A stretch of 37,239 nt of DNA, from assembly GCA_905480225.1 (NCBI GenBank), contig CAJQPO010000041.1:1-37239 (forward strand), in the 5' to 3' direction. Position 1 is the first letter of the stretch. Each line of letters opens with the position of its first letter. This stretch comes from an uncultured Flavobacteriales bacterium (GTDB lineage: Bacteria > Bacteroidota > Bacteroidia > Flavobacteriales_D > Parvicellaceae). The notes below the pieces were generated by a model. That model made no database searches. It had not been told where the DNA came from and saw only the letters and a list, made by a program, of their open reading frames with translations. This document shows positions 2,641 to 6,696 of this stretch, piece by piece. A program made the position numbers and the translations under genes.

Positions 2641-3029
2641 TTCAATGGGGAGCTAATGCTCCCCAGAGAATGGATTAACGCCACCTTACATCCTTGTTTA
2701 TCGTTGAGAGGAAGGGAGTTGAACCCTACAAACGATCGCCTTCGATCCAAACAATATTTTTGTTTAGGATTCAATGGGGAGCCAAAAGCTCCCCAAAGAA
2801 AGGATTAACGCCACCTTACATCCTAGTTTTTCGTTGTGAGGAAGGGAATTGAACCCTTCAAACGATCGCCTTCGATCCAAACAATATTTTTATTTAGGAT
2901 TCAATGGGGAGCTAAAAGCTCCCCATTGAAAGGATTAACGCCACCTTACATCCTAGTTTTTCGTTGTGAGTAAGGATTTGAACCTTTTTTAGCTGCTGCC
3001 TTCAGCAACTCACATTTTTAAAGAACAAG
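2641..3029. repeat. Three tandem ~130-bp structured repeat units, gene-free
   Basis: No gene is seen from 2628 to 3161. Units start at 2641, 2770 and 2900 (spacing 129 and 130). Each holds, in order: a GC-rich hairpin (GGGGAGC...GCTCCCC, a perfect 14-bp stem with 3-nt loop in unit 3, 2900-2930); a near-invariant stretch GGATTAACGCCACCTTACAT plus CC; a hairpin whose minus strand is a tRNA T-arm look-alike with loop TTCAACT, TTCAATT or TTCAAAT (2713-2727, 2842-2858, 2972-2986); and a 5-bp hairpin with loop CCTT (AAGG on the minus strand). In units 1 and 2 that last stem is GATCG/CGATC, in unit 3 TGCTG/CAGCA, so pairing is kept while sequence changes. This argues for a structured RNA or folded DNA on the minus strand. 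Confidence 0.85.
2965..3014 (-). other. tRNA-like fold in repeat unit 3 (acceptor-like stem, hairpin, T-arm)
   Basis: Read on the minus strand, the unit folds as follows: a perfect 7-bp closing stem TGTGAGT/ACTCACA (3014-3008 with 2971-2965), a hairpin TGCTG-AAGG-CAGCA (3007-2994), a 7-nt linker, then a T-arm AAGG-TTCAAAT-CCTT (2986-2972) stacked directly on the closing stem. That is the topology of a tRNA without its D-arm, 50 nt in all. There is no usable 7-nt anticodon loop with U33, and no CCA. Units 1 and 2 keep the T-arm and the AAGG hairpin but have only a broken closing stem (TTGTttGG with CCtcACAA in unit 2). It could be a tRNA-derived element or an unrelated structured RNA. Confidence 0.45.
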
Positions 3030-3161
3030 TAAGTAATGAATACTTGAATACTTTCAAAGTTATAATTATTTACGAAGCTTTACGAATAAAGTAACAAAAA
3101 TTCATAATTATTAGAGTATATGCATTAAAATAGTATATTTATTACATTTATTGTATTAAAT

Positions 3162-3635
3162 ATGGAAAATAGTAGTAATGTTTACGATATTGATAATCTG
3201 GATAGGGAAATTTTAAGTATTCTCATGGAAAATGCTAAAACTTCCTATTCTGAAATTGCCAGAAAATTAATTGTTTCTCCAGGCACCATACACGTCAGGA
3301 TGAAGAAATTAGAAGATGCTAAAGTTGTAGTAGGGTCGCAAATAAATGTTGATCCTCAAAAATTGGGATATGACTTATCTGCGTTTTTAGGCGTCTATTT
3401 AGAAAAGAATTCAGCTTATGAAGAAGTTATTTATAGACTAGAGCGAATCTCAGAAGTTGTGGAAGCCTATTATACAACAGGTAATTATGGTATCTTTTTA
3501 AAGATTTTCTGTAAAAACACGAAGCATTTGTACGATGTACTGAATCACAAAATTCAGCCAATTAATGGCATTCAGAGAACGGAAACACTTATTTGTCTCG
3601 AGGTTGGACTCAAGAGGCAAATAGGTATTCAATGA
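3162..3635 (+). CDS. Lrp/AsnC family transcriptional regulator
   Basis: A 157-residue feast/famine regulator. The N-terminal winged helix-turn-helix is at about residues 10-60 (LDREILSILMENAKTSYSEI, then IARKLIVSPGTIHVRMKKLE), with the usual LDxxIL opening. The C-terminal RAM/AsnC effector and oligomerisation domain spans about 68-152, with the typical alternating beta strands and the YYTTGNYGIFLKIFCKN segment. Such proteins bind amino acids and control amino-acid metabolism genes. The nearby tyrosine catabolism genes (hppD, hmgA) and the aminotransferase are plausible targets, but nothing in the sequence proves it. The upstream AT-rich 140 bp separate it from the repeat block and could hold its promoter. 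Confidence 0.93.
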   Translation: MENSSNVYDIDNLDREILSILMENAKTSYSEIARKLIVSPGTIHVRMKKLEDAKVVVGSQINVDPQKLGYDLSAFLGVYLEKNSAYEEVIYRLERISEVVEAYYTTGNYGIFLKIFCKNTKHLYDVLNHKIQPINGIQRTETLICLEVGLKRQIGIQ

Positions 3636-4349: not shown

Positions 4350-5513
4350 TTATAAAGTTCCTCTATTTTCCTGTTCTCTTTCTATTGCTTCAAAAAGTGC
4401 TTTAAAGTTGCCTTTACCAAAAGACTGAGCACCTTTTCTTTGAATAATCTCAAAAAACATAGTTGGTCGATCAACAACTGGTTTGGTAAATAATTGAAGT
4501 AAGTATCCTTCATCATCCCGATCAATCAGAATTCCATGCTGTTTTAATATATCTACGTCTTCATCAATTTCACCAACTCGTTCGATCAAGTCCTCATAGT
4601 AGTTTTCTGGCACATATAAGAACTCTACTCCGCGATTACGCATTTCTGATACTGTTGCTACTATATCATCTGTTGCTACAGCAACGTGTTGCACTCCAGC
4701 GCCATTATAGAAATCTAAGTACTCTTCTATTTGTGATTTTTTCTTGCCCTCAGCGGGTTCATTTATTGGAAATTTAATCCTACCATTCCCGTTGGACATT
4801 ACCTTACTCATTAAAGCCGTATAGTCTGTAGAGATGTCTTTGTCATCAAATGAAATAATTTGCGCAAAGCCCATTACTTTCCCATAAAATTCGCACCATT
4901 TATTCATTTCATCCCAACCTACGTTTCCAACCATGTGATCGATAAATTTTAAACCAACAGGTTTTGGATTATAGTGAGATTCCCATTTTTTATAACCTGG
5001 TAAAAATATTCCATGGTAGTTTTTACGTTCAATAAATACGTGAACAGTTTCACCGTAGGTGTGAATTCCAGACTTAACAATTGTTCCGTTTTCATCCTCA
5101 ACGGTTGTCGGTTGCAAATAGCTTTTGGCTCCTCTTTTGGTAGTTTCTTCCCAAGCTTTTGTTGCATCGTCAACCCATAAGGCAACCACTTTGACACCAT
5201 CACCATGTTTGTCTATGTGTGCATTTATTTCGCCGCCTTTTTCTAGAGTGGTGGTTAGGACCAACCTTATCTTGCCTTGCTTTAAGACATAAGAAACGCG
5301 GTCAGTCACTCCAGTTTCTAAACCTGCATAAGCCTCACTTTGAAAACCAAAAGCAGTTTTATAAAAATGAGCGGATTGTTTTGCATTTCCAACGTATAAC
5401 TCAACGTAATCTGTGCCTAAAAGTGGCAAAAAGTCTTCCGCTTCAGGAAATAACTTTTTCAATCCATATTCGGTATTTTGTAAGTTCTTAAGGTCTTTTA
5501 TTTCTGCTGACAT
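4350..5513 (-). CDS. hppD: 4-hydroxyphenylpyruvate dioxygenase
   Basis: Converts 4-hydroxyphenylpyruvate to homogentisate with O2 and Fe(II), the second step of tyrosine breakdown. The 387-residue protein (ATG at 5513, MSAEIKDL) has two vicinal-oxygen-chelate domains: an N-terminal one starting GTDYVELYVGNAKQS and a catalytic C-terminal one. The three iron ligands are visible: H193 in FIDHMVGNV, H276 in GVQHVAVATDDI and E355 in MFFEIIQRKG. The C-terminal gating helix (FGKGNFKALFEAIEREQ) is present. A TTG 39 bases further upstream is open but would overlap the real hmgA 3' end, so 5513 is chosen. It lies 23 nt after the reconstructed hmgA stop and is probably co-transcribed with it. Confidence 0.97.
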   Translation of the reverse strand: MSAEIKDLKNLQNTEYGLKKLFPEAEDFLPLLGTDYVELYVGNAKQSAHFYKTAFGFQSEAYAGLETGVTDRVSYVLKQGKIRLVLTTTLEKGGEINAHIDKHGDGVKVVALWVDDATKAWEETTKRGAKSYLQPTTVEDENGTIVKSGIHTYGETVHVFIERKNYHGIFLPGYKKWESHYNPKPVGLKFIDHMVGNVGWDEMNKWCEFYGKVMGFAQIISFDDKDISTDYTALMSKVMSNGNGRIKFPINEPAEGKKKSQIEEYLDFYNGAGVQHVAVATDDIVATVSEMRNRGVEFLYVPENYYEDLIERVGEIDEDVDILKQHGILIDRDDEGYLLQLFTKPVVDRPTMFFEIIQRKGAQSFGKGNFKALFEAIEREQENRGTL

Positions 5514-5536
5514 ATTCTGAAATTTAACGTTATTTA

Positions 5537-6696
5537 TTAATGTTCTAACCAAGAGGTATGATAATCTCCCATATCTAAATCTAACCCTTGTTGTGTTAGT
5601 TTTAATGGCTTAAAAGTGTCCACCATAACGGCTAGTTCTTCCGTCTTCACTTGCCAATACTTCTTTCCATCGCCCCAGGGTGTGGGCCGTGAGGAATGCC
5701 TGATGGATGTAATGTTAGCATTCCCTGTTCAATGTGATTTCTACTCATAAAGTCTCCATCAACATAATAAAGGACTTCATCGGAATCAATATTGCTATGA
5801 TTGTAGGGAGCAGGCACAGACTCGGGATGATAATCGTATAGTCTTGGGCAAAAAGAGCACACTACAAAAGCACTTGTTTCAAATGTTTGATGTACGGGAG
5901 GAGGTTGATGGACTCTACCCGTAATAGGTTCAAAATCATGGATGGAAAATGCATAAGGGAAATTATATCCATCCCAACCAACTACATCGAAAGGATGTGA
6001 TGCATAGATGTATTGGTGAAGCATTCCTCCTTTTTTTACTTTTACTAAAAAATCACCTGTTTCGTCATGTGTTTCAAGTTCACTCGGTCTTCTTAAATCA
6101 CGCTCACAGTAAGGGGAATGCTCGAGTAATTGACCAAACCAATTTCGATACCGTTTTGGTGTATACATTGGGTGATACGATTCTACGATAAAAAGTCGGT
6201 TATTTTCATCATTAAATTCCATTTGATAAATCATTCCACGAGGAACAATTAAGTAATCACCATATGAAAATTCAATATTACCCAATAGGGTTTTGAGTTT
6301 CCCAGAACCTTTGTGAATGAATATCATTTCATCACAATCTGCATTTTTATAGAAATAAGTGGTTTGAGATTGTTTAGGGGCAGCAACTACAATATGACAA
6401 TCATTGTTTACCAATACAGGAATCCTACTTTCGAGAAAATCATTGGTGGGAACAGCATTAAAGCCATTCAGTGCGTACGACTTCATGTTATTCTCTACTG
6501 CTATTGTAGGCGCAACGTTAATGGATTCCAAAATTTCTTTTACTTGAGTTGGTCGTTGACAATGATATAATAGGGATGACATACCATCAAAGCCAATCGT
6601 ACCAAACAATTCCTCGTAATAGTAGCTACCGTCAGGTTTTTTGAACGTTGTGTGCCTTTTGTGAGGAATTTTCCCGAGTTTGTGATAAAAGGGCAT
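5537..6696 (-). CDS. hmgA: Homogentisate 1,2-dioxygenase, frameshifted near the C-terminus
   Basis: Opens the ring of homogentisate to maleylacetoacetate, the step after HppD. The reading frame from 6696 runs 349 codons with the cupin-fold features of the family, including NHSNIDSDEVLYYVDGDF (H300 with acidic residues at +6/+7) and the HGPHPGAMERSIGK block (H336-H339), then meets a TGA at 5649-5647. One base out of frame, the sequence continues KTEELAVMVDTFKPLKL and ends MGDYHTSWLEH at a TAA (5539-5537), exactly the tail the family should have. The total of 1160 nt is one short of 387 codons, so a single missing base near 5647-5655 explains it. Either a real mutation, removing about 37 terminal residues, or a sequence error. 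Confidence 0.93.

Follow-up and report, generated by a model that had tools for sequence, protein, structure and literature searches.

Architecture of the array in the window

The window analysed here is the whole 37,239-nt stretch of contig CAJQPO010000041.1 from an uncultured Flavobacteriales bacterium, and it carries on its minus strand a tandem array divergent from a gene encoding an AsnC-type regulator (Table 1). As proposed in the initial annotation, the array consists of three minus-strand units of about 130 nt each, with start spacings of 129 and 130, within 2641-3029, and it is gene-free, no ORF of at least 80 aa being present between 2628 and 3161. The previously claimed hairpins (GC-rich, with a 7-nt T-loop, and with an AAGG loop) were all found in the array, the T-loop having the form TTCAANT. 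The stem of the AAGG hairpin changes between TGCTG/CAGCA and GATCG/CGATC with pairing preserved, unit 3 is closed by a perfect 7-bp stem (TGTGAGT/ACTCACA), and the reported variation of the T-arm stem among units was confirmed, with a 4-bp stem in unit 1. The conserved stretch, 24 nt long in the initial annotation, is also present in each unit, with an invariant block of 22 nt. Near the array, the minus strand also encodes 4-hydroxyphenylpyruvate dioxygenase (4350-5552) and a homogentisate-dioxygenase-like protein (5647-6696).

Table 1. Features of the array and its surroundings (window coordinates unless a locus is named)
Feature	Position	Strand	Remarks
AsnC orthologue, divergent from the array	3162..3635	+	NCBIfam AsnC; Pfam AsnC ligand domain and HTH
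-7 promoter element TAACTTTG of the RNA, Bacteroidota-type	3055..3062	-	TAnnTTTG motif enrichment
Leader hexamer GTTCTT	3021..3026	-	position by reading; also in both relatives
Unit 3, mini tRNA-like	2965..3014	-	7-bp acceptor-like stem (3008-3014 with 2965-2971); AAGG D-arm-like hairpin 2994-3007 (TGCTG/CAGCA); T-arm
Unit 2, mini tRNA-like	2835..2886	-	AAGG hairpin 2864-2877 (GATCG/CGATC); T-arm; 3' acceptor-like strand 2835-2841
Unit 1, mini tRNA-like	2705..2756	-	AAGG hairpin 2734-2747 (GATCG/CGATC); T-arm
T-arms of units 3, 2 and 1	2972-2986, 2842-2858, 2713-2727	-	
Invariant block GGATGTAAGGTGGCGTTAATCC, copy 1	2932..2953	-	same in 7/7 units having it, three genomes
Invariant block, copy 2	2802..2823	-	
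Invariant block, copy 3	2672..2693	-	without a T-arm after it
GC-rich hairpin after unit 3	2900..2930	-	14-bp perfect inverted repeat, between units, without T-run; may be a processing site or a terminator
GC-rich hairpin after unit 2	2776..2794	-	
GC-rich hairpin after unit 1	2647..2664	-	followed by a short T-run
Small-RNA-like motif of G027/G029	L041 ~2085-2170; L042 ~1085-990	+; -	

The unit boundary is better redrawn, with the tRNA-like element comprising the closing stem, the AAGG hairpin and the T-arm (e.g., 3014-2965), which places the 22-nt block and the GC-rich hairpin between the tRNA-like elements. Folding of the 406-nt minus strand gave z = -6.3, and 0/100 shuffles were equally stable. 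The GATCG version of the AAGG hairpin (units 1 and 2) had a probability of at most 0.08 when the full-length strand was folded, yet this hairpin covaries (see below), and an alternative pairing of the 5' strand of the T-arm with the invariant block was predicted in some units.

Related arrays and covariation

In its own genome the element was found in three copies only, all at one place, and among 39 family genomes the array recurred in two others, G038 (JABJPZ010000077.1, Crocinitomicaceae bacterium; three units) and G037 (CAJWDP010000026.1, uncultured Flavobacteriales bacterium; two units). The gene order serine hydrolase, array, AsnC-type regulator and Hsp20 is common to the three genomes, and this synteny, together with the single locus in the own genome, argues against the tRNA-like transposable unit suggested in the initial annotation. 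A match in a further family genome, G021 (E 0.03), looks by eye like coding sequence. Outside the genus, a model of the window-type units only (R1) gave no convincing match, with a best E of 0.043 among the 39 family genomes and of 0.028 among the 399 order genomes; better plus-strand matches of R1 inside the genus (E 0.004-0.05) were the same hairpins read in reverse. A short elbow pattern matched strings in 36/399 order genomes.

Across the eight genus units, double changes occurred at 9 pairs (shuffle mean 5.3; 2/500 shuffles as high), and the covariation score was reached by 0/500 shuffles. The AAGG hairpin was paired in 97.5% of cells and the closing stem, in one register, in 54%. By eye, the closing stem was perfect in 4/8 units; in L011 and in the window, units 1 and 2 close through weaker or alternative pairings. 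The two mini-elements of G037 have perfect closing stems of differing sequence (TTGTGAT/ATCACAA and TGTTCG/CGAACA), which is compensatory evidence for an acceptor-like stem combined with a GG-loop hairpin and a T-arm, in other words a tRNA elbow lacking the anticodon arm. Two related MAGs carry homologous arrays in which pairing is preserved by compensatory substitutions.

A long tRNA-like RNA family in Bacteroidia

A longer tRNA-like RNA of 109-203 nt, with a 7-bp acceptor, D, anticodon and T arms and a very large variable arm, was identified beyond the genus. R2, a covariance-type family model built from nine long forms in which all 216 cloverleaf cells pair, produced matches of 75-118 bits in 66/395 class genomes; at least 66/395 carry the long form, and the complete sequence from a 67th genome, G621 (L126), reaches 93.3 bits. 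Some R2 match at E <= 0.001 was obtained in 276/395 genomes, the weaker ones being about 84 nt long, and matches of at most 60 bits were ordinary tRNA-Leu in 6/6 checked, suggesting tRNA-Leu as a likely ancestor.

In 48 distinct sequences (from the 40 best-scoring loci, the nine training sequences included), 99.4% of 1152 cells were paired with double changes at 14/24 pairs, and in 51 further distinct sequences (the remaining strong matches and L126) 98.3% of 1224 cells were paired with double changes at 15/24 pairs, both alignments being fitted to R2 and so biased towards it. The covariation score of either alignment was reached by 0/500 shuffles, and partner sliding lowered pairing to 52-62% in both. 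Such strong structural constraint on the long forms speaks for more than the decayed ordinary tRNA that the initial annotation had allowed for. The tertiary set U8-A14, R15-Y48, G18G19 and TTCRA was present in 48/48 best-scoring long forms, and the other 51 showed U8 in 50, U48 in 50 and TTCRA in 50. With the 7/5 model to which they were fitted, both alignments gave a 7/5 acceptor-T branch (paired cells: 100% and 99.7% in the acceptor, 100% in the T-stem). Tandem same-strand copies with gaps of 20-418 nt were found in 16/66 genomes, indicating that the family is prone to tandem expansion; G768, in which AsnC lies between the two RNA copies, was not counted as tandem.

ARAGORN found nothing on the window or on 30 class loci. 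Of 13 order loci, 11 of them with the RNA, 12 were likewise without a call, and the sole gene called was a separate tRNA-Arg. Rfam at E <= 1 gave no tRNA-family match to the RNAs across 10 order loci, where the sub-cut-off matches touching the RNA were Phe_leader (30.8 of 55 bits, 3' end, L084) and Plastid-psbl-rps4 (23.6 of 68 bits, opposite strand, L042), and no match at the gathering score across 18 further sources. The Rfam search that the initial annotation had recommended for the window array likewise yielded no match at the gathering score and otherwise chance-level matches. As no description of an AsnC-linked tRNA-like RNA was found in the open-licence PMC literature, this RNA is apparently undescribed so far.

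Shortened members also occur. L125 (G455, 69 bits) is a 77-nt short form without the large variable arm, called by ARAGORN as tRNA-Asp with anticodon ATC. L131 (669-783, minus) and L075 (2111-2191, plus) are reduced forms, apparently arisen independently, without a normal anticodon arm; the genome of L131 also has AsnB. Together with the window genus, the family shows a graded series from a full tRNA to an elbow-only RNA.

Linkage to AsnC and a common promoter motif

The window regulator scored 186.5 bits with NCBIfam AsnC (cut-off 227, not reached) and 81.1 with the next model, LrpA, and its nearest solved structure was E. coli AsnC (2cg4, 2.6e-42). At E <= 1e-35, AsnC was detected in 16/399 order genomes, whose AsnC-divergent slot held long tRNA-like RNAs in 10 (L073, L079-L087), a reduced RNA in one (L075), the array of the genus in three, just a motif and terminator with no tRNA part in G027, and nothing recognised in the distant G277. 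Hence the view of the initial annotation that the window holds a tandem-expanded, tRNA-derived member of an RNA family gained support, since the same AsnC-divergent slot holds tRNA-like RNAs across Bacteroidia. Divergently from AsnC, G027 and G029 both carry a small-RNA-like motif, AAGAGGTAGTAGT..TTTTGTAG, with a strong terminator.

In the class, AsnC (E <= 1e-35) was found in 64/66 genomes with a strong RNA match (RNA-positive) compared with 10/80 without one (Fisher 6e-28, for related genomes, uncorrected for kinship, and tests that are not independent). The two RNA-positive exceptions were G752, which is highly fragmented, and G555, in which an AsnC relic with five in-frame stops (G555:C24:4201-5043) lies beside RNA L202 (79.6 bits; loop CGTTCTA and T-loop TTCTAAT, both degenerate). 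The RNA lay within 300 nt of AsnC in 45/66 genomes, each with a divergent copy (the nearest copy in 44 genomes and the second copy in G768), at a median gap of 166. RNA and AsnC were separate or on different contigs in the other 21/66, and the AsnC upstream region was RNA-free in 10/10 examined of these. Of the 10 AsnC-bearing genomes without a strong match, G525 carries an RNA of 31.4 bits in the divergent slot; the other nine showed no RNA there at E <= 1.

The motif TAnnTTTG, the Bacteroidota -7 promoter consensus, occurred in the RNA direction in 27/34 AsnC-RNA intergenic regions, those of the window and its two relatives among them, against a mean of 5.4 and a maximum of 13 in 1000 dinucleotide shuffles; some of the 34 regions come from close relatives, and at class loci the start of AsnC was taken as the start of the tblastn match. 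The hexamer GTTCTT, chosen as the top one among all hexamers, was present in 13/34 regions (1.0 expected) and resembles the boxA of rRNA leaders.

Relation of the window units to the long forms

Sequence similarity between the window units and the long forms is weak. R2 gave 6.2-21.9 bits on the genus units, and an unrelated place in the same 26 kb reached 8.8; in these 26 kb with filters off, the three window matches were weak though end to end (E 0.00015, 0.016 and 0.17), and a genome-wide R2 search gave no match to the window units. Unit 3 aligned with 13.9 bits (E 0.016), its AAGG hairpin lying on the D-arm (GAA-GGCAG). In units 1 and 2, R2 prefers TGTAAGGTG of the invariant block as the acceptor 5' strand, and TGTAAGGTG resembles the acceptor 5' strand plus U8 G9 of the long forms, just as the block sequence TGTAAGGTGGCG looks like their 5' end (TGTGAGGTGATG in G029). 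As a thermodynamic structure, the invariant block serving as the acceptor 5' strand of the next unit was rejected, with a pairing probability of 0.0 in the whole-transcript fold; the block-as-acceptor parse may instead be an evolutionary reading.

The window has the AsnC-divergent position, its own promoter motif, and acceptor, D and T arms in common with the family. From the tertiary cloverleaf set, its units retain only the acceptor-like stem, the GG hairpin and the T-arm. They have no anticodon arm, and all three carry A in place of G73; G is retained at position 73 in a single one (from G038) of the five remaining genus units. T1-A72 is retained in window unit 3. Membership of the window in the family, most likely on these data, rests on position, promoter, leader, elbow and T1-A72, the sequence link being weak. 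Overall, a real, structured, AsnC-linked tRNA-like family very probably exists, and the window most likely represents a strongly reduced tandem branch of it.

Identity bases of the long forms

All of the 99 distinct long forms (the 48 and 51 sequences above, with L126 included and L075, L125, L131 and the window genus excluded) carry U1-A72, G2-C71 and G73. Their anticodon loop has G34 in 94, U35 in 98, C36 in 98 and C38 in 97, U33 in 84 (G in 12, C in 2, a gap in 1), and at position 37 U in 79, C in 10, G in 9 and A in 1, i.e. a pyrimidine in 89. The bacterial identity elements given in PMC9976931 are G73, G10, G34, U35, C36 and C38 for Asp, G73, G34, U35, U36 and A37 for Asn, and, among others, C72 and C11-G24 for Ser, and GatCAB recognises U1-A72 according to the text of PMC4206432. 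Judged by its bases, the long form unites an Asp-type loop with the GatCAB signal. Some tRNA-Asp features are missing, G10 being present in only 23/99 and G1-C72 being replaced by U1-A72 in 99/99, so a permissive AspRS would be needed. A serylated RNA, initially considered from G73 and the long arm, was dropped given A72 (99/99) and U11 (88/99), neither of which fits the tRNA-Ser elements.

Asparagine synthetases and GatB

E. coli K-12 carries asnC and asnA as a divergent pair 151 nt apart, and E. coli AsnC responds to asparagine in regulating asnA. In G496, an AsnC-bearing genome with no RNA in the slot, the divergent gene is asnB (gap 153; AsnB 940.9 bits, cut-off 499). The slot of the RNA is therefore taken in some other bacteria by an asparagine-making enzyme, which suggests an RNA helper for asparagine making.

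AsnB and GatB were surveyed in 72 genomes, 46 RNA-positive (36 of the 66 strong class genomes, chosen for family cover, and 10 from the order or genus, four of which have reduced RNAs) and 26 without a strong match. E. coli-type AsnB above the cut-off was present in 0/46 RNA-positive and 5/26 RNA-negative genomes, and in 4/6 RNA-negative genomes with AsnC (3/5 without G525, which has AsnB and the divergent RNA together). Since it was also absent from 19/20 genomes without both AsnC and RNA, only the small contrast with the six AsnC-bearing genomes (Fisher 6e-5) is informative. In 42/46 RNA-positive genomes there were AsnB-like relatives that did not reach the cut-off (E <= 1e-30, at most 255 bits), often in frames of 600-660 aa, some of which may be active synthetases; only G399, G719, G689 and G680 had at most marginal AsnB-like relatives. 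GatB was found in 45/46 RNA-positive genomes, in 3/6 AsnC-bearing RNA-negative genomes and in 19/26 of all RNA-negative genomes. The sole exception among the 46 was the window's own MAG, in which GatB was not found; both relatives have it. Within family f52, G437 has AsnB without RNA and GatB, and the four RNA-positive members tested (G766, G476, G510 and G623) show the reverse. According to passages of PMC4206432, some bacteria, including Bacteroidetes genera, lack both asparagine synthetases, possess AsnRS, GlnRS and GatCAB, and may form Asn on tRNA.

Proposed mechanism and alternative explanations

The preferred reading, with a probability of roughly 40%, is that the window units are reduced tandem members of a Bacteroidia-wide, non-decoding tRNA-like family whose long forms would be charged with aspartate, amidated by GatCAB and controlled by AsnC. 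The long-form RNA would fold as a tRNA and be charged by AspRS through its GUC-C38 loop and G73, after which GatCAB would amidate the Asp-RNA to Asn-RNA through U1-A72. The abnormal anticodon loop and oversized variable arm would exclude the RNA from the ribosome; both abnormalities could be explained by the harm that an RNA loaded with Asn but bearing a GUC loop would do there. Asparagine would thus be made on a dedicated RNA and released, and AsnC would tune transcription of this RNA to the asparagine level, in parallel with its control of asnA in E. coli. In the window genus, the RNA would have shrunk to an elbow and acceptor; the absence of the anticodon arm makes charging there doubtful, and the array, either reduced but kept or decaying, may be a failing or repurposed version. 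This asparagine mechanism is tentatively regarded as the best single explanation of the loop bases, U1-A72, AsnC, the asnA/asnB slot and GatB together. The broader proposition, that much of Bacteroidia makes asparagine on a dedicated non-decoding RNA that has replaced a synthetase in place and role, pared down to an elbow and multiplied in the window, is advanced with more reserve.

For the window itself, a serious though unlikely alternative is that the array is a decaying relic, the genus no longer needing the RNA and only traces remaining. The lost anticodon arm, the A at the G73 position in all three units, the imperfect closing stems of units 1 and 2 and the failure to find GatB in the own genome are all in line with decay, but the pairing preserved by compensatory substitution in the AAGG hairpin and closing stems of the genus, the identity of the 22-nt block in three genomes, the retained promoter and leader, and GatB in both relatives point to maintenance.

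The RNA could also be an uncharged decoy or regulatory RNA, an AsnC-controlled tRNA mimic that binds a synthetase, EF-Tu, RNase P or a modifying enzyme and tunes translation to the amino-acid supply. Elbow, acceptor and T-arm are the very parts retained in the reduced forms as well, and some lineages do without the anticodon and variable arms (L075, L131 and the window genus; L125 without the variable arm). A decoy is nevertheless rather unlikely, because U35, C36 and C38 (97-98/99) and U1-A72 and G73 (99/99) are more specific than it needs, and because it leaves the asparagine synthetase genes in the same slot unexplained.

It is less plausible still that the tRNA-like elements are RNase P/Z processing signals releasing the 22-nt block and hairpin as a small RNA. 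Several long forms, by eye, run straight into terminator-like hairpins, which does not fit such a role, even if no other part of the array is as conserved as the 22-nt block and the AsnC-divergent RNA of G027, devoid of a tRNA part, has its motif and terminator in common with G029.

Charging with serine or another residue, for use in a non-ribosomal reaction, appears improbable. G73, the large variable arm and G2-C71 partly fit bacterial tRNA-Ser, as does the purine-pyrimidine pair at position 4-69 in 89/99, but A72 and U11 conflict with the C72 and C11-G24 of the Ser list in PMC9976931, and the linkage to AsnC would go unexplained. Nor do the long forms have the A73 that tRNA-Leu needs.

An overlooked decoding tRNA (e.g., Asp or a suppressor) is very improbable despite the full cloverleaf and the G34, U35 and C36 of nearly all long forms, because U33 is found in only 84/99 and position 37 is mostly a pyrimidine, which makes a decoding role unlikely, and because the variable region can be as long as about 130 nt and the anticodon arm is missing from some lineages. 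Integron attC sites, T-box or riboswitch elements and CRISPR-like repeats, weighed against their generally known features, were rejected, there being no Rfam gathering-score match and no downstream gene on the array strand.

Comparison with known systems and significance

The long forms resemble the type II tRNA-Leu in D-arm sequence type and long variable arm, but differ from it in having G73 instead of A73, U1-A72, a non-Leu loop and a variable arm that is often several times longer. TRNA-dependent asparagine synthesis, in which AspRS and GatCAB act on tRNA-Asn, is alike in U1-A72, G73, G34 and U35, with GatB in 45/46 RNA-positive genomes; in contrast to that route, the mechanism proposed here, if right, would use a separate non-decoding RNA with the Asp-type C36 and C38. 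The allo-tRNAs and tRNA-Sec-like RNAs described in PMC7609411 also have a large variable arm, and, in the text of that source, odd anticodons, some in polycistrons and unusable in translation, whereas the long forms have a 7/5 and not an 8/4 or 9/3 acceptor-T branch, are linked to AsnC and belong to Bacteroidia; the word 'Bacteroidetes' occurs 0 times in the available text of PMC7609411. A tRNA-like elbow plus an insert is common to tmRNA and the long forms, but the latter have an anticodon-like arm, and in the window region the tmRNA search gave only a 17-nt T-arm fragment (11.9 bits, cut-off 47); ARAGORN called no tmRNA on the window or on the class and order loci. Compared with the divergent asnC-asnA pair of E. 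coli, the partner of AsnC is here an RNA instead of an enzyme gene.

A conserved tRNA-shaped RNA is therefore carried by roughly one in six of the 395 Bacteroidia genomes sampled, with no match in Rfam 15 and missed by ARAGORN. Its AsnC linkage, its identity bases and the synthetases in the same slot provide a testable hypothesis on asparagine supply and on a target of AsnC. If charging takes place, the RNA would be a specialised substrate for amino-acid synthesis and not for translation, and an RNA gene would have taken the chromosomal place and the role of an asparagine synthetase.

Further features of the long forms

Several minor features were observed in the long forms. The motif GGGTTGACCAC recurs in long variable arms (e.g., L103:1281-1426, L113:1501-1651 and L073:1170-1372), and the variable arms of the 48 sequences contain GACCAC in 9/48, ANAAA in 42/48 and CTAAC in 41/48. 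Enlarged D-loops of up to about 37 nt are present in some members of the 51-sequence set (L154-L204). Two Rfam DUF805 RNA motifs lie near a long-form locus (L084, 240-304 and 832-897, plus). In addition, columns 25 (D-loop) and 36 (anticodon loop) covary, with A/U in 35, C/G in 9 and C/U in 4 of 48 sequences, hinting at a possible contact between D-loop and anticodon loop or an alternative fold.
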